Part shown: in pieces, positions 13,728 to 43,470 of the stretch
Numbering within the stretch: the stretch's first letter is position 1
Layout of the letters: each line of letters starts with the position of its first letter
Origin: Nitrospirota bacterium
GTDB lineage: Bacteria > Nitrospirota > Nitrospiria > JACQBZ01
Direction of reading: 5' to 3'
Length of the DNA: 55,554 bases
Assembly: GCA_016194285.1 (NCBI GenBank)
Contig: JACQBZ010000028.1
Span: forward strand, 89,320-144,873
Notes under the pieces: generated by a model
Databases searched by the model: none
Told to the model about the DNA's origin: nothing
Seen by the model: the letters and a program-made list of their open reading frames with translations, nothing else
Position numbers and translations under genes: made by a program

Positions 13728-15143
13728 TTATTTTTGTGCCCGCCCGCCTGCCTGCCGGTCAGGCAGGTCCGGCAGGCGGGACCGTTTGATATGCAGTTTC
13801 AGTCCCTCGACGCCGGTCACCTCGACCGCCTCGCCCTCCCGGATCGGCTCGGAGCTGACCGCTTCCCAGATCTCTCCCTGGATCCGAATTTGACCTCGGG
13901 GGTTGATCTCGGTCCGGGCGGTTCCCTCGACGCCGATGAAGCCCTCGATTCCGGCGACCGATTTTTGATGACGGCTCTTCCAGGCCATTCCGACCACCCC
14001 CACGAAGAATCCGGCCGTCACAACGGCCGTCGGAAGGATCACCCACAAGGAGATTTGCATCGAGGGCATGTCGGTCTTGACCAGCATCAGCGAGCCCAGC
14101 ACCATCGAGACGACGCCCCCCACCGTCAACAGCCCGTAGCTCGGCACCTTGATCTCGGCGATGAACATCACGACGGCCAGAAGGATCAGGAGCAGGCCGG
14201 CGTAATTGATCGAGAGGGTCTGGAAGGAATAGAAGGCCAGGACGATGCAGATCGCGCCGACCACGCCGGGCAGGATCGCGCCCGGGTTCGACAGTTCGAA
14301 GATCAGCCCGTAAATGCCCAGGAGCATCAGGATGTAGGCGATGTTGGGGTCGCTGAGTGCGTTTAAGATCTCCAACCGGCCGCTCATTCCGACCTTCTTC
14401 ACCACGGCCGATTTCGTTTGGAGGGTGTGCCGTCCCGAGGCCGTTTCAACCGTTCGGCCGTCCACGGCGGTGAGCAGGGCCGGCAGGTCCGGCGCGATCA
14501 GATCGATGATCTTGAGCTTCAAGGCTTCGGTCTCGGTGGCCGAGACGCTCTGGCGCACCGCGTCCTCGGCCCACTGGACGTTGCGGCCGTGTTTATCGGC
14601 GATCGACTTGATATAGGCGGCCGCGTCGTTTTCGACCTTTTTTTTCATTTCTTTATCCATCTCGCCGCCGCCCATCGAAACGGGATGGGCCGCGCCGATG
14701 TTCGTCCCCGGGGACATCGCCGCGATATGGGCCGCCAGCGTGATGAAGACGCCGGCCGAGGCCGCGCGCGCGCCGACGGGCGAGACGTAGACGATGATCG
14801 GCGCCTCGGAGGCGCTCATCTCCTTGATGATCATCCGCATGGAGGTATCGAGCCCGCCGGGCGTGTCCATCCGGATCACCAGCGCTTCGGCATGATCCTT
14901 CGCGGCATCCGCGATCGCCTGAGCCATGTATTCGGCCGCGACCGGATTGATCACGCCTTCATACGTAGCGACATCGACCACGGCGGCCCCGGACGTTTCC
15001 TTTAATTCATCGGCCAGAACGGGACGGGTCTGAAAGGGGATATCCATCACGGATGGAAGCGGGGACAACAGTAAAACGGCTGTTGCGACCATGGACAGGG
15101 AAACGAGCAGGAAGACCGCTCTGATCCGTCGGAAAGCAGACAT
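13728..15143 (-). CDS. NfeD-family membrane serine protease (long form with ClpP-like domain)
   Basis: A 471-residue protein of the long NfeD1b class. It has an N-terminal signal or anchor (about residues 8-28), a ClpP/SppA-like serine protease domain (about 50-225) with the likely nucleophile Ser129 in [11 protein letters not shown] and a downstream lysine expected as general base, several membrane helices (about 255-375), and a C-terminal OB-fold NfeD domain. A normal NfeD domain would end near LKLHIKR. Here the last dozen residues ([11 protein letters not shown]) are encoded by a palindromic repeat, so the tail looks acquired. It forms an operon with the slipin gene, its known substrate partner in archaea and bacteria. 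Confidence 0.92.
13743..13780. repeat. CCCGCCTGCC palindromic repeat forming the nfeD 3' end
   Basis: Arms CCCGCCTGCC (13743-13752) and GGCAGGCGGG (13771-13780) are exact reverse complements. The inside holds a second near-palindrome of CCTGCC and GGCAGG. It is read in frame as the C-terminal tail of the NfeD protein. Confidence 0.75.
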
Positions 15144-15167
15144 CTTAAAGCCCTCACGAGAATGAGT

Positions 15168-15197
15168 ATCATAGTCTTTTCCGGATCAGGCTGTCAA
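15168..15197 (-). promoter_or_regulatory. Promoter of the nfeD-slipin operon
   Basis: On the minus strand: TTGACA, 18 nt, TATGAT, then about 24 nt to the ATG with GAGGG in between. This is a near-consensus sigma-70 promoter with a normal short leader. Confidence 0.7.
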
Positions 15198-38130: not shown

Positions 38131-39312
38131 TTATTTGACCTGAAGAATAGCGCATTTCAGATATTCCGTTTCGGGTATTTCCAGCACGATCGGATGATCC
38201 CGGCCCTGGGTGCGCCAAGCCGTGATGTAAAAGGATCGTTTGGCATCGGCGGCGGCCGAGACCAAGGTCTCACGAAACAGCTCAGGACTAACCAGATGAG
38301 AACAAGAACAGGTAATTAGGATACCCCCCGATGACAATAGTGTCATGGCCAGCCGGTTGATCTCTTTGTATCCCCGTGTCGCCTCTTTGACCTTCTGACG
38401 GCTTTTGGCAAACGCCGGCGGATCCAGAATGATGCAATCGAATCGCTCCTTCGCTTCGCGAAGCCGATGGAGACCGTCAAAAACGTCTTCTTGAAGAAAC
38501 GTACAAACGGAGGCCAGGCCGTTTCGTTGGGCGTTGCCTTGAGCCTCATCAATGGCCTTTTCCGAGCTGTCCAGACCGATCACCTCTCTTGCGCCGTACC
38601 GGGCGGCATGGAGTCCCCATACCCCGGTGTAGCAGAAGGCATCCAGCACGCGTGCGTCTCGGACCATTCCCTCAAGACATCGGTAATTCTCGGATTGATC
38701 CAGGAAAAAACCGGTTTTTTGACCTTCCCAGACGTCCACTTCAAATGACAGGCCATTTTTCTGGATGACCAAAGGGGAGGGGAGTTCTCCATAGAGAAGT
38801 CGTTTTTCTTGGGCAAGGCCTTCGAGCACTCGGCCAGCGGTGTCGTTGCGCGCGACCACGGCGGTAGGGTGAAACCGTTTGATTAAGACCCGAAGCACCG
38901 GCTCGGTCAGACGATCCATCCCGGCGGTCAGGAACTGGGCCACCCAGACGGGGCCGTATCGGTCGATGATTAAACCCGGAAGGCCGTCGGCCTCTCCGAA
39001 GACGACCCGGTAGGCCTCTTCGCCGCCGAGCCACCGTTCGCGGAGCGCCTGTGCACCGGAGATTTTCCGCTCCAGAAAATCCTCGTTGATCTCGATTCGC
39101 TCTCGCTGCAGCAGGCGGACCGCAATAAGCGATCGCGGGTTAAAGTACCCGCGGCCGATCCATTCTCCCCGATGGTTTTGGATATCCACCGGTTGCCCGG
39201 GTTCCAGTTCCTTCGGTAGCCGGGTCAATTCATTCGAGAAGATCCAGGGATGGCCGGTCTTCAATCGCTTGGCGGCATGGGCTTTGATCACGAGGATGGG
39301 AAGCGGGGTCAT
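38131..39312 (-). CDS. rlmI: 23S rRNA (cytosine-C5)-methyltransferase, RlmI/RlmK-L family
   Basis: A 393-residue enzyme expected to methylate C1962 of 23S rRNA. An N-terminal PUA domain (residues about 1-75, starting KAHAAKRLKTGHPWIFSNEL) is followed by an EEHEE domain and a SAM-binding core with motif I LDAFCYTGVWGLHAARYGA, motif IV DCIILDPPAFAKSR and motif VI ITCSCSHLV, which carries the candidate catalytic cysteine. Length and layout match RlmI. The stop lies close to the convergent upstream membrane protein gene. Confidence 0.9.
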   Translation of the reverse strand: MTPLPILVIKAHAAKRLKTGHPWIFSNELTRLPKELEPGQPVDIQNHRGEWIGRGYFNPRSLIAVRLLQRERIEINEDFLERKISGAQALRERWLGGEEAYRVVFGEADGLPGLIIDRYGPVWVAQFLTAGMDRLTEPVLRVLIKRFHPTAVVARNDTAGRVLEGLAQEKRLLYGELPSPLVIQKNGLSFEVDVWEGQKTGFFLDQSENYRCLEGMVRDARVLDAFCYTGVWGLHAARYGAREVIGLDSSEKAIDEAQGNAQRNGLASVCTFLQEDVFDGLHRLREAKERFDCIILDPPAFAKSRQKVKEATRGYKEINRLAMTLLSSGGILITCSCSHLVSPELFRETLVSAAADAKRSFYITAWRTQGRDHPIVLEIPETEYLKCAILQVK

Positions 39313-39317
39313 CGTAT

Positions 39318-40088
39318 TTATAGGAACTCAAACTCCAGAATGGCTTTGATCACTTGATCGTCGCTTGCTTTGGTCAATCCAAAGCCGTATCCGATATCCA
39401 GCCCAACGCGGCGGGAAAATTTGAGTCCCAGACGCGGGAAGACATAATGCTCCTGCTGACTTTTGGGCTTCAGATCACCCCATGGACCCATATCGCCGTA
39501 GAATTCCACGCCAGGCGTCAGCCGAGGCGTCGCCCGGTAATACAGGCCCGATGCGTATTCGAAATCCAGGCCTTCGTCGACATTCGCCCCGCTGACATTC
39601 TTGGAAAAAAGGGGGTTTAGGATTATCGAAATCTGCCCGATGTCTTTTTCAAGAATGACGCGCGTCTCGACCGTTTCGCCGTCGAGATACTTTCTTTTGG
39701 GGAGAACATATTCGATTTCGACCGCTCCATCCAGGAATCGTTCGCCCTGTTCAAAAAAGCGGTATCGCGACACGACCGCTCGAGCCTGGACATATCTGAA
39801 ATCGCCGTCTTTCGGCTGTTCAAAATCGGCGTAAGCCGCGACGGTCCAGTGGTCTGTCATCCCGTATTCGACCTCCAGTGAATGCTGCTGCAGGCCCTGT
39901 TTGTCCAAGAGCTTCCCGAAGTAATTGTAGGAATGATCCGATTTGACGGTGTAGGTCCACCAATAAGCCAGCTCCGTCTCTCCTTCACTCGGTGTTTGAT
40001 ACGGATAGACTTTAAAGTCGAGCGCATACGTCGGAGAGGCCAAGTCAAGCAGCACGGCCAGGATCGGCCAAACCTTCATTCGAAACAT
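39318..40088 (-). CDS. Predicted outer membrane beta-barrel protein of the iron operon
   Basis: A 256-residue exported protein: signal peptide VWPILAVLLDLASPTYA, then alternating beta strands (for example HSLEVEYGMTDHWTVAAYADFE and HYVFPRLGLKFSRRVGLDIGYG) and a C-terminal aromatic end LEFEFL typical of barrels. AAAGGAGA precedes the ATG. It is the last gene of the fur-cupredoxin-FTR1-cupredoxin operon, only 12 bases from the preceding stop. A role as an outer membrane channel for iron is plausible but is inference; there is no TonB box or plug domain. Confidence 0.75.
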   Translation of the reverse strand: MFRMKVWPILAVLLDLASPTYALDFKVYPYQTPSEGETELAYWWTYTVKSDHSYNYFGKLLDKQGLQQHSLEVEYGMTDHWTVAAYADFEQPKDGDFRYVQARAVVSRYRFFEQGERFLDGAVEIEYVLPKRKYLDGETVETRVILEKDIGQISIILNPLFSKNVSGANVDEGLDFEYASGLYYRATPRLTPGVEFYGDMGPWGDLKPKSQQEHYVFPRLGLKFSRRVGLDIGYGFGLTKASDDQVIKAILEFEFL

Positions 40089-40100
40089 CCGGTCTCTCCT

Positions 40101-40544
40101 TTAACGCGGAAGCGGTTGATCGGCTTCGATCAGAATCATCCCGTCCATTCCATGATGGCTGGGAATGCGGCACTGGAAGTCAAACTGTCCTGCGGGCGGG
40201 GAGAGGAGTTTGATCCGGGCCGTCTGGCCGGCTGCGATGTCCACCTCCTCGATGTTCCGGCCGCGAACGGCGCTTTCACCAATCTCCACCTCGATCATCT
40301 GGTCCTTGAAGAGTGCGGACCGGAATTGATGAGGTTCGTGTCCTTCATTTTCAATCACCAGTTCGAGCGGACGATTCGACTTTACCTGAATCCGACGGGG
40401 GGTGAAGCTATATTCCTCCGCCTTAATCTCGACCGTTTGCCAATCCGTCTGAGCATGAACCGAACTGGGTCCGACCGAAAAGATGATCGCCAAGCCGATG
40501 AAGGCTGTCAGGCCGCTTGCAACGAAGAAGGGCATCCGGGTCAT
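40101..40544 (-). CDS. Periplasmic cupredoxin with a type I copper site
   Basis: A 147-residue exported cupredoxin with signal peptide ASGLTAFIGLAIIFSVGPSSVHA. The fold is that of plastocyanin-like proteins, with copper ligands His (GHEPHQF), Cys, His and Met in FQCRIPSHHGMDGMI. Its start overlaps the stop of the FTR1 permease gene by four bases, so the two are coupled. A copper protein next to an FTR1 permease suggests that it oxidises ferrous iron for uptake, or passes electrons, as in fungal Fet3-Ftr1 and bacterial FtrB-type systems. That role is inference. Confidence 0.85.
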   Translation of the reverse strand: MTRMPFFVASGLTAFIGLAIIFSVGPSSVHAQTDWQTVEIKAEEYSFTPRRIQVKSNRPLELVIENEGHEPHQFRSALFKDQMIEVEIGESAVRGRNIEEVDIAAGQTARIKLLSPPAGQFDFQCRIPSHHGMDGMILIEADQPLPR

Positions 40545-41362
40545 TGCGCCAAATCATGGCGTTGCCGCCGGAGCCAGATCAGGGTGATGGGAAAGTAAAG
40601 AAGGTAGAAGAGGGCCTGGACGAGTGACGGGCTGGAACGATACCCAAAAATACCCGCGACCAGTGAGCCCAAAAAAGACCGCTCGCTCAAAAACCAGGAG
40701 GTGTTCCAGATCGGTTCCATCAGTGGTGGGACCAGTCCCACCGTGACCAGTTTTCCGATTCCGGAGGAGAGCATGCCGGCCGCCATAAAAAGGAGGATGA
40801 ATCCGCTCACCCGGAAAAAAGGTTTCAGGTCGAGATGGCCGAATCCCTTGAAAAAGAGCCAGGTCATCAGAACGCCGAGCCCGATCCCCAACAGTCCGCC
40901 CGTGACCGGCAGCGCCACGGATGTTACCCCTCCTCCTTGCAGGAAAAATCCCCAGAGAAAAAGCACCGTCTCCACGCCCTCGCGAAACACGCCCACGAAA
41001 GCCAGCGTGGCCAAGGCCCAAAGCCGATTCTTGGTGATCGCCAGTTCCGCCTGGTGTTGAAGCGCCCCCTTGATCTCACGAGCATTGTGATGCATCCAGA
41101 CCACCATGTGAGTCAGAACACCCGTAGCCAGGAACAGGATGGCAGCCTCAAAAATGTCCTCACCGATGTCCTTGAAGAATACGGACAAGTAATCGGACAT
41201 ACCGGCAAAGATCAAGCTGGCTATAACCGCCCATAGCGCGCCCCAATACACAAAGCGAAACTGCTTGGACTGTCCGATCTTATTCAGGTAGGTTAAGAGA
41301 ATACCCACGATGAGAGCGGCCTCGATGGTTTCTCTCCAGGTGATAATAAATGTTCCTAACAT
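40541..41362 (-). CDS. FTR1-family high-affinity iron permease (EfeU-like)
   Basis: A 273-residue membrane protein with seven predicted helices and the two hallmark REXXE iron-binding motifs: TWRETIEAALIVG near residue 10 and FREGVETVLFLWG in the middle. FTR1/EfeU permeases carry iron across the inner membrane, usually with an oxidase or cupredoxin partner. It lies between two cupredoxin genes under a Fur promoter. No EfeB peroxidase and no full EfeO are present, so this is not the classical efeUOB operon. Confidence 0.94.
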   Translation of the reverse strand: MLGTFIITWRETIEAALIVGILLTYLNKIGQSKQFRFVYWGALWAVIASLIFAGMSDYLSVFFKDIGEDIFEAAILFLATGVLTHMVVWMHHNAREIKGALQHQAELAITKNRLWALATLAFVGVFREGVETVLFLWGFFLQGGGVTSVALPVTGGLLGIGLGVLMTWLFFKGFGHLDLKPFFRVSGFILLFMAAGMLSSGIGKLVTVGLVPPLMEPIWNTSWFLSERSFLGSLVAGIFGYRSSPSLVQALFYLLYFPITLIWLRRQRHDLAQ

Positions 41363-41374
41363 CCTGCTGTTCTC

Positions 41375-41713
41375 CTATTCTGCAATGACCATCCCCTTCG
41401 CGGTATCCGGATGAAAATCTCCGAAAAAATCATAGCTGCCCGGTTTGAGCGGGGGGAGGAAGATCGTTATGGATTGACCCGCCCGTACGACCTTTTCCCG
41501 ATTGAGACTGAAGCTTTCGAATTCTTCGGCCGTTTGATCCTCGTTGCTGACGAGCAATTTGATCTTCGTATGGGCCTTGACCCTGACCTCGGAGGGCGAG
41601 AAGCGATGATCCTTAATGACGATGCGGATCTCATCCTCTGCGGCGGCCGTACCGATAAGCAATAGCCCAAGCCCGAGTACGAAACAGAAATGCATCGCCG
41701 CGTTTCTTTTCAT
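41375..41713 (-). CDS. Stand-alone EfeO-type cupredoxin domain protein
   Basis: A 112-residue exported protein counted from MKRNAAMHF, which begins a signal peptide ending AAA before EDEIRI. The mature part matches the N-terminal cupredoxin domain of EfeO (NEDQTAEEFESFSL and PGSYDFFGDFHPDTAKG). It has no cysteine, so it cannot form a type I copper centre; acidic residues and one His may bind metal. The C-terminal M75 domain of EfeO is missing altogether. The tracked start 45 bases upstream would spoil the signal peptide. It lies 12 bases before the FTR1 gene. Confidence 0.88.
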   Translation of the reverse strand: MKRNAAMHFCFVLGLGLLLIGTAAAEDEIRIVIKDHRFSPSEVRVKAHTKIKLLVSNEDQTAEEFESFSLNREKVVRAGQSITIFLPPLKPGSYDFFGDFHPDTAKGMVIAE

Positions 41714-41777
41714 GATAGTTCTTCGATCCGGTTCGGTGAAAATCGTTCGCAATTTCATGTAAATGGATTTTTGAAAA

Positions 41778-42236
41778 TTAACGGCCGGTCGCCCTCTGCC
41801 AATCCCGACACTTTTCCCAATCGATGCAATGTCCGTAGAGCTCCAATCGGTGGTTGCTCAATGTGAAGCCGTGTCGGGCGGCCATTTCTTCCTGAAGCCG
41901 TTCGATGGCGGGAGATTCAAACTCGATAATCTTATCGCATTTATTACAGATCAGGTGATCGTGATGCTTTTTGTTGATTACGTTGTCGTAAATCGTCCGG
42001 GTATCGTCAAAATGCCGTTGCTGGCCGATGCCGATTTCACACAAAAGGTTCAAGGTTCGGTAGATAGTGGCCAGGCCCATTCGTTGGGGTCCCGTCTGGG
42101 AGATCTGACGATGCAGTTCTTCGGCCGTTATATGATCCACCTTGAGAAAGGCTTCCAGGATCGTTTCCCGCTGTTGAGTCAGTTTTAGGCGTTTCTTGAC
42201 CAGATAGTTCTTTAATCGGCCGACTTCTTTGTTCAT
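41778..42236 (-). CDS. Fur-family metal-dependent repressor
   Basis: A 152-residue regulator of the Fur superfamily. A winged helix covers about residues 5-80 (RMGLATIYRTLNLL is the recognition region), and the dimerisation/metal domain has HHDHLICNKCDKIIEF and a second Cys pair in GHCIDWEKC, which may form the structural zinc site. The ATG at 42236 is preceded by AAAGGA. It is the first gene of the iron uptake operon and is preceded by an inverted repeat overlapping its -10 box, so it probably represses itself and the transporter when iron is sufficient. Full Fur identity versus PerR or Zur is not proven. Confidence 0.9.
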   Translation of the reverse strand: MNKEVGRLKNYLVKKRLKLTQQRETILEAFLKVDHITAEELHRQISQTGPQRMGLATIYRTLNLLCEIGIGQQRHFDDTRTIYDNVINKKHHDHLICNKCDKIIEFESPAIERLQEEMAARHGFTLSNHRLELYGHCIDWEKCRDWQRATGR

Positions 42237-42283
42237 GGGCGGTTCCTTTGTCATCGCGTGCAATCGGGTGTTCGTTGAAATTG

Positions 42284-42325
42284 ATTTTGATTCTCAAAAT
42301 ACAGGACTGCCGGCTGGGTTGTCAA
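42284..42325 (-). promoter_or_regulatory. Promoter of the fur-iron uptake operon with an overlapping Fur-type box
   Basis: On the minus strand: TTGACA (42325-42320), 18 nt, TATTTT (42301-42296). The perfect inverted repeat ATTTTGA-TTC-TCAAAAT (42284-42300, plus-strand reading) covers the -10 box. A Fur-family dimer bound there would block transcription. The arms resemble the AT-rich, TGA-containing half-sites of Fur boxes but do not match the E. coli consensus fully. Confidence 0.65.
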
Positions 42326-42359: not shown

Positions 42360-43403
42360 TTATTTTGCGAGATAGAGCTCCATGAACAGCAGCACAAACC
42401 ATCCGATTTGGAGGATGAACCAGCCGCCGATCAGGACAAATTCCAGTGTGGTGTTGAATGAAATGGAGAAGTTTTCAGCGGCCATGGTATAGACGTCTTC
42501 GAGGATGTCCAGTTTCTCGTTGATGTTTTGCCGCCACTCGTCGAGATGGAATTTTTTAGAGATGAGCGCGTAAAGCCGGGCCGTGTACCAATCCCCGATC
42601 AGTTTGATGCTGTGCTCGATCGCCTGGGATTCCAGAATGGAGGTGGTCCGGGTCTGGATAATCTCTCGCAGGACCGACCGGACCTGCTTGGACCGGAGCC
42701 ACGACTGTTCCGGACGTCGTCGGAGCAACTGAAGGGTCGTTTTCAATCGCCCATCCAATTCTTCATCGAGGATTCGCGATTTTAAGAGTTGAAGGTTGGT
42801 GATTTCGAACAGTTCAATGTTTGCGTCAAAATCTCCATGAGGGTCAAAGATAAAGGCACCGTCCCAGTCCACCACGGTCAGGTCGTCCTTCCCATATTTC
42901 AGATTCGATCGGAGGGTCGCTTTGATCTCTTCTTCGTCCAAAGGGATCCGCTCTTTCTTAAGCAGCGCGGCGATTTTTTCGCCGTGAAGCGCCAGAAACA
43001 TCTCGGGGTCTCCTTGATAATCCGAAATGCAGTAGACACTGTACTCTTCGTCAAACTCGGGGTCGCACTGAAACTCGTTTAAGATGCGGCGGCTCTCCAG
43101 CAGCAGGTCGCGATTGAGCTCGAGCAGAGGTTCCGCCGCCAGATCATGAAATTCGAAGGTGGCTTCCACAATGACGGTATCGGGAACATAGGCCTTGACG
43201 ACAAAGGTGGCGTCCCGGTCCCGGATCTCGCCTTTTTGGATCCGGATGATCGCCTGCTTCGGGATCACGTCGGGATAGTTCGGGGAACTCTTGAGCACCC
43301 GGCTTTCCACGATGGCCGTCGTCTCCAGATTCAGTCCGGTCTGACCCACCAAAAAAGTGACGCATCGCCCTTTCAGGGCCATTTCTTGTCGCCAGATTTC
43401 CAT
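42360..43403 (-). CDS. RMD1/YagE-family protein (DUF155)
   Basis: A 347-residue protein related to yeast Rmd1/Rmd8 and bacterial YagE. Its core DUF155 domain includes VDWDGAFIFDPHGDFDANIELFEITNLQLL and LRSILEEII-like helices, and a single C-terminal membrane helix (FVLIGGWFILQIGWFVLLFMELYL) makes it tail-anchored. The start is set at 43403 because a near-consensus promoter ends only nine bases before that ATG; the tracked start at 43463 lies upstream of the promoter. There is no ribosome-binding site, so a leaderless mRNA is likely. The molecular role of the family in bacteria is unknown. Confidence 0.85.
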   Translation of the reverse strand: MEIWRQEMALKGRCVTFLVGQTGLNLETTAIVESRVLKSSPNYPDVIPKQAIIRIQKGEIRDRDATFVVKAYVPDTVIVEATFEFHDLAAEPLLELNRDLLLESRRILNEFQCDPEFDEEYSVYCISDYQGDPEMFLALHGEKIAALLKKERIPLDEEEIKATLRSNLKYGKDDLTVVDWDGAFIFDPHGDFDANIELFEITNLQLLKSRILDEELDGRLKTTLQLLRRRPEQSWLRSKQVRSVLREIIQTRTTSILESQAIEHSIKLIGDWYTARLYALISKKFHLDEWRQNINEKLDILEDVYTMAAENFSISFNTTLEFVLIGGWFILQIGWFVLLFMELYLAK

Positions 43404-43412
43404 GAACCCATC

Positions 43413-43441
43413 ATAATACGCAGCCGTCGGATGGGTGTCAA
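43413..43441 (-). promoter_or_regulatory. RMD1 promoter predicting a leaderless mRNA
   Basis: On the minus strand: TTGACA, 17 nt, TATTAT, then nine bases to the ATG. The match is nearly perfect, and it redefines the start codon of the RMD1 gene. Confidence 0.75.
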
Positions 43442-43470
43442 GGAAAGCGGTTGACATGGCCAATTTTGTC

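Follow-up and report, generated by a model that had tools for sequence, protein, structure and literature searches.

A predicted Fur-controlled FTR1 iron import operon with an FtrB-like cupredoxin and an outer-membrane barrel in Nitrospirota

Here we describe a row of five genes in a 55,554-nt stretch of DNA from a Nitrospirota bacterium (GCA_016194285.1, contig JACQBZ010000028.1, positions 89,320-144,873 of the forward strand), hereafter the window, whose own coordinates are used throughout. The row encodes a Fur-family regulator, a first cupredoxin (cup1), an FTR1-family iron permease, a second cupredoxin (cup2) and a predicted outer-membrane barrel. We consider it probable that these genes form a Fur-repressed iron importer of the FtrB-FtrC type, i.e., one built on an oxidase-dependent FTR1 permease, with a built-in outer-membrane channel; the barrel may be a lineage-specific entry port of this importer. 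Gene order, protein families, the conservation of a predicted Fur box and of iron ligands, modelled folds and recurrence in several families all point in this direction. Such a system bears on two questions, namely by what means the iron handled by bacterial FTR1 permeases is oxidised and by what path Fe(II) passes the outer membrane.

Operon layout and predicted Fur control

The source assembly (2.31 Mb, completeness 88.6%) has its nearest contigs in metagenome-assembled genomes labelled Nitrospirae, mainly from groundwater, and in one labelled Nitrospiria. In the comparisons below, f numbers are family codes, G numbers designate genomes and L numbers loci. A preliminary description of the window, made from the sequence before the present analysis, had proposed the five genes, and they are there as consecutive open reading frames (ORFs) on the minus strand, from 42263 down to 39318, with Pfam matches to FUR, to FTR1 and, twice, to Cupredoxin_1, the barrel being recognized by AlphaFold2 modelling. 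The regulator gene (41778..42263; PF01475, 3.2e-34; 161 amino acids as listed, with a likely internal ATG start) is accompanied by two further FUR-family genes found elsewhere in the genome. It is followed by the genes for cup1 (41375..41758; PF13473, Cupredoxin_1, 1.5e-29), FTR1 (40541..41362; PF03239, 7.3e-44), cup2 (40101..40544; Cupredoxin_1, 1.2e-13) and the barrel (39318..40088), separated in this order by 19, 12, -4 and 12 bp. Given gaps of -4 to 19 bp and a methyltransferase gene lying only 5 bp further on, the row is likely to be a single transcript. Purifying selection acts on each of the four structural genes, with ratios of nonsynonymous to synonymous polymorphism (pN/pS) of 0.07-0.35.

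Upstream of the regulator gene, a sigma-70-type promoter is predicted together with a Fur-box-like site (42277..42325, minus strand). The TTGACA (42325-42320) and TATTTT (42301-42296) elements are spaced by 18, and the site GAGAATCAAAATCAATTTC stands directly after them, at 42277-42295, agreeing with the Fur consensus at 14 of 19 positions. A score of 14/19 is not rare by itself, so it is the conservation of the site that constitutes the evidence. Indeed, the operon is preceded by sites scoring 14-15/19 in all six f1 relatives and 13-16/19 at five loci of f4, f5 and f7, and near-perfect sites (16-18/19) precede the f16 operons, which carry no fur gene; FTR1-cup1 loci of f24 score 13-15. By its predicted Fur box, the operon would thus belong to the Fur regulon, in agreement with the Fur-controlled iron operon first proposed. 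Barrel genes standing outside FTR1 operons (f6, f9, f21 and f24) have no Fur box, their scores of 9-12 lying inside the background range. Comparing these values with the conserved sites at FTR1 operons, iron control of the barrel seems to be restricted to the loci that join it with FTR1. Elsewhere in the window, a second Fur-box-like site (15/19; 15158-15176) immediately precedes a gene of the NfeD family (13728-15143, minus strand).

Two cupredoxins, a permease and a channel-like barrel

The exported protein cup1 has as its closest solved relative 8VUK (1e-12 by sequence, 4.4e-17 by profile), which is the Brucella abortus FtrB (PMC11966278). In the FtrB crystal, the ligands of Mn(II), used as a stand-in for Fe(II), are E84, E86, E93 and D119 (PMC11966278). 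Residues E79, E81, E88 and D114 of cup1 align with these ligands, and the last position is D or E in most relatives, the row of f24_L142, read in a wrong frame, being disregarded. As for copper, it has been described that FtrB D118 is required for its binding and that the H121A variant lost oxidase activity (PMC11966278). The former residue is replaced by G113 in cup1 and the latter is kept as H116, a position that is also Gly in the f5 proteins; furthermore, the mature part of cup1 contains no Cys. From these residues, cup1 would probably have retained the iron site and lost the copper site of FtrB, and because D118 is replaced we class it as FtrB-like (Cup-II) and not as FtrB. It had previously been described as an EfeO-type cupredoxin without the M75 domain. 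The second half of this assignment stands, since no M75 match occurs in the genome; the first does not, because the best match is FtrB and EfeO (7WGU) is absent from both the sequence and the profile matches.

The permease scores 150.6 bits with PF03239, against a gathering threshold of 25.3, and has both iron-permease RExxE motifs, RETIE at 10 and REGVE at 127. Its identity among f1 genomes is 86-95%, and it falls under the EfeU equivalog cut-off (211.9 vs 255). FTR1 systems are considered to be oxidase-dependent (PMC11966278). In f2 genomes (L016-L020, L060), an FTR1-like stretch of about 26% identity was observed inside ORFs of about 660 amino acids, possibly fused to another domain.

The second exported cupredoxin, cup2, carries the type-1 copper set announced in the preliminary description: H72, C125 and H131 do not vary among 10 sequences, and M136 hardly does. 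Its AlphaFold2 model finds its best fold match in AcoP, with a template-modelling score (TM) of about 0.55 and 17-19% identity, and there is a weak sequence match to the copper-resistance protein CopI. The Cys-His spacing is x5 in cup2, and x7 in the f6 proteins and in extra copies of G001 and G004. A cupredoxin with one copper is unable to reduce oxygen alone, unlike the multicopper oxidases, and for this reason we take cup2 as an electron carrier, which is more likely than its being a complete ferroxidase. The division of labour suggested earlier, with iron bound by cup1 and copper by cup2, fits the residues of both proteins, and it is the idea of cup2 as the iron oxidiser that has to be modified.

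The barrel was modelled by AlphaFold2 with a mean predicted local distance difference test (pLDDT) of 78.5 and about 12 strands. Among solved structures, its fold comes closest to FapF and the COG4313 channel 4RL8, with TM values of 0.60-0.68 to 4RL8 and to the majority of FapF chains at an identity of only about 11%. PF13557 (Phenol_MetA_deg) matches weakly in 7 of 14 relatives (best 0.00036); the window barrel has no Pfam match, and a search of solved structures with the barrel profile gave no sequence match. The model suggests that the protein is probably a passive, COG4313/Phenol_MetA_deg-like channel, which may serve in iron entry. As a family, it cannot be regarded as iron-specific in the way first supposed, because some members also occur away from FTR1 and lack a Fur box. 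In f24 (L099, L100, L101 and L104), a YCF48-like gene comes after the barrel, which lies near a Fur-family gene and yet has no Fur box.

Recurrence, operon forms and other iron importers

A close FTR1 was found in 14 of 58 genomes of the Nitrospiria class, that of the window included, and Fur-cup1-FTR1 is present at all 14 loci; beyond the class, the cup1-FTR1 pair is widespread across the phylum. The barrel belongs to this row of genes in six genomes of f1 (in the seventh, G006, the contig ends too early), directly after FTR1 and without cup2 in the three f5 genomes, and as cup1-FTR1-barrel in 3/3 genomes examined of f16, which belongs to another class. It therefore shares the FTR1 operon in three families. 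The core alone is found in f4 and f7. In f6 it is accompanied by a distant cup2, with the barrel on a separate contig in one genome, and at the f24 loci examined the FTR1-cup1 order is reversed and the barrel is elsewhere. Of 396 genomes of the phylum, 30 have a strong cup1, and 28 of these carry the barrel, compared with 28 of the remaining 366; related genomes are not independent in this count, and its p-value has to be read with that in mind. Thus, the association of the barrel and the second cupredoxin with FTR1, on which the preliminary description depended, does recur in other genomes.

The operon had also been called compact and minimal, which is misleading, since its close relatives G001 and G004 hold a longer form, with four genes inserted between FTR1 and cup2 (L042:6214-9822 and L045:6211-9791). 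The insert encodes a porin-like protein, a fusion of ApbE with a domain binding flavin mononucleotide (FMN), a small membrane protein (P0002, for which Pfam has no family) and a second cupredoxin. In G006 (L059:3-767), the same porin-like gene follows FTR1 at the contig end, where nothing further of the insert is seen. Long and short forms both occur in two genera, so that loss or gain of the insert has probably happened more than once. Altogether, the natural variants (core; core and barrel; core, cup2 and barrel; long form with flavin genes) provide a set already at hand for assigning the roles of the parts.

With respect to other importers, FeoB (PF07664) was found in none of the 58 class genomes, among them complete genomes in which no close FTR1 occurs, and TIGR00437 gave only partial, GTPase-type matches in 31 genomes, none above the cut-off; both results argue against a FeoB concealed by divergence. 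P19 (FtrA, PF10634) was likewise found in 0/58 class genomes, and M75 (PF09375) neither in the window genome nor in the FTR1 genomes tested of f1 and f4-f7. The absence of full EfeO proposed earlier thus holds for the genome, and that of EfeB for the operon, the search for this DyP-type peroxidase, as for the FtrD membrane ferredoxin, having covered the operon genes and not the genome. Four TonB-receptor plug domains were found, so that siderophore-type entry is possible. In groundwater Nitrospirota that carry it, the FTR1 operon may be a main inner-membrane iron route, as the lack of FeoB in the 58 class genomes suggests; it is not claimed as the sole one, because ABC, NRAMP and ZIP importers and EfeB were not searched.

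Proposed mechanism, alternatives and known systems

From these data we infer the substrate, the direction of transport, the redox steps, the role of the barrel and every contact between the proteins, as follows. Under low iron, Fur would leave its box and the operon, fur included, would be transcribed. Iron, probably as Fe(II), would diffuse through the 12-stranded barrel with no need for TonB, and FtrB-like cup1 would bind it at the Glu/Glu/Glu/Asp site beside FTR1. It would be oxidised at cup1, with cup2 taking the electron and handing it to a periplasmic acceptor, and FTR1 would carry the ferric iron over the inner membrane via its RExxE motifs; in the long-form relatives, the FMN-binding protein and the second cupredoxin would lengthen the electron path. 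A more ambitious version, which we regard as tentative and rather unlikely in its entirety, would see here a self-contained, TonB-independent and envelope-spanning iron route, in which a dedicated channel, an FtrB-like protein and FTR1 are combined with Fe(II) oxidation through a single-copper cupredoxin (and a flavin protein in some relatives) feeding respiration, as a principal iron route of a lineage in which FeoB was not found.

Several observations weigh against an importer made of all five parts. The FTR1 operons of f4, f5, f7 and f16 have no cup2, so an oxidising role of cup2 is not general and its standing as an essential part, assumed in the preliminary description, is not borne out; moreover, the f5 operons lack H116 as well. 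FTR1 occurs without an adjacent barrel in f4, f6 and f7, and the barrel family without an adjacent FTR1 in f6, f9, f21 and f24. The co-occurrence of barrel and cup1 takes no account of shared ancestry. Concerning regulation, a score of at least 14/19 is reached in 4.4% of 384 upstream regions, the targets included, and the two f6 loci present no convincing site, with scores of 11/19.

Some of these facts would agree with an arrangement in which only the Fur-cup1-FTR1 core is an importer, cup2 and the barrel being passengers or remnants of a separate redox or outer-membrane module that came to adjoin it in f1. In f14 (G304, L098:4412-9454), a row made of a related porin-like gene, FMN_bind, a small membrane protein, the barrel and the methyltransferase gene exists without FTR1 nearby; a whole insert separates FTR1 from cup2 in G001 and G004, the porin gene follows FTR1 in G006, only the core is present in f4 and f7, and lone barrels have no Fur box. 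Nevertheless, FTR1 and the barrel are adjacent without cup2 or insert in f5 and f16 (three genomes each), the latter in another class, and cup2 overlaps FTR1 by 4 bp in the window, for which we judge the passenger arrangement unlikely. Less probable still is a reductive path, in which cup2, with the flavin module in the long form, would give electrons to free Fe(III) and generate Fe(II) before uptake. The ApbE/FMN_bind gene of the long-form loci would suit it, as would the FMN-binding proteins of 260 P19-FTR1 clusters, suggested to act like assimilatory iron reductases (PMC8238504). However, the window operon encodes no flavin protein and FTR1 systems are held to depend on an oxidase, as mentioned above. 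In addition, type-1 copper proteins usually have potentials too positive for the reduction of Fe(III) complexes. Finally, a cluster for copper handling or respiratory iron oxidation instead of iron nutrition would account for the fold of cup2, closest to AcoP of the Acidithiobacillus iron-oxidising chain, and for its weak resemblance to CopI, but the Fur box and fur gene, indicative of iron limitation, the two permease motifs of FTR1 and the lack of cup2 in several homologous operons make it highly improbable.

Taking the operon as an FtrB-FtrC-type importer, its nearest characterised system is FtrABCD (or FtrABC) of Brucella and Bordetella, dedicated to ferrous iron, so that the core is close to a characterised system, where the preliminary description knew of none with this composition. 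In both, an FTR1 permease (FtrC) is paired with a cupredoxin of the FtrB type that stands alone and keeps the iron ligands. The operon described here differs in having no FtrA/P19 and no gene at the FtrD position, in the replacement of FtrB Asp118 by Gly, and in the addition of Fur, a type-1 cupredoxin and the barrel. The nearest prediction is the EfeU-cupredoxin pair of Leptospirillum, proposed in 2008 as an Fe(II) route in an organism of the same phylum where FeoB was reported absent (PMC2631029). As described in that paper, it also places FTR1 beside a cupredoxin, whereas it is linked to a kelch-domain gene and the text mentions no barrel or second cupredoxin (PMC2631029).

More distant systems share single traits. 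EfeUOB is iron-regulated and couples an FTR1-family permease to a cupredoxin-fold periplasmic protein; the operon differs from it in the lack of M75 and EfeB and in the sub-threshold EfeU score already given. The P19-FTR1 clusters (FetMP, cFtr1-P19) join FTR1 to a periplasmic iron/copper protein and have flavin proteins, as the long-form relatives do, but here P19 is absent and the operon contains neither ABC (ATP-binding cassette) permease nor thioredoxin genes. The COG4313/Phenol_MetA_deg channels and FapF may be comparable to the barrel in the predicted 12 strands and in the weak PF13557 matches of half of the relatives, and are set apart from it by the low identity and the lack of a Pfam match in the window protein. 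AcoP of Acidithiobacillus ferrooxidans has in common with cup2 the fold, the His, Cys, His and Met ligands and the H-x4-M spacing; it differs in its Cys-His spacing, x6 instead of x5 (PMC4059628), in an extra region of AcoP that is not shown for cup2 and in the low identity. Regarding entry through the outer membrane, an unknown receptor had to be assumed in the study of Campylobacter P19 (PMC6083913), and a precedent for a porin is FeoP, in the Acidithiobacillus FeoPABC operons, which likewise place a porin gene in an iron operon with a Fur box (PMC2631029), although there an OprB-type porin is associated with FeoB and here this barrel with FTR1. An incomplete literature search yielded no description of this gene set in groundwater Nitrospirae, nor of a barrel recurring in FTR1 operons over three families, of iron-binding and copper sites split between two cupredoxins, or of long and short operon forms, which is not proof of novelty.

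Two neighbouring genes on the minus strand complete the picture. Downstream, the methyltransferase gene (38131..39312) encodes a PUA/SAM (S-adenosylmethionine) protein resembling the ribosomal RNA methyltransferase RlmI, and is probably co-transcribed with the operon yet outside its iron function. Upstream of Fur, a gene at 42360..43463 encodes a conserved protein of 367 amino acids with one C-terminal membrane segment, for which Pfam has no family and which presumably resembles the RMD1/YagE proteins. Its membership in the iron system is uncertain; in f1 its gene stands upstream of Fur, in f5 it is close to the operon, and in G016 (L052) the barrel gene comes directly after it.

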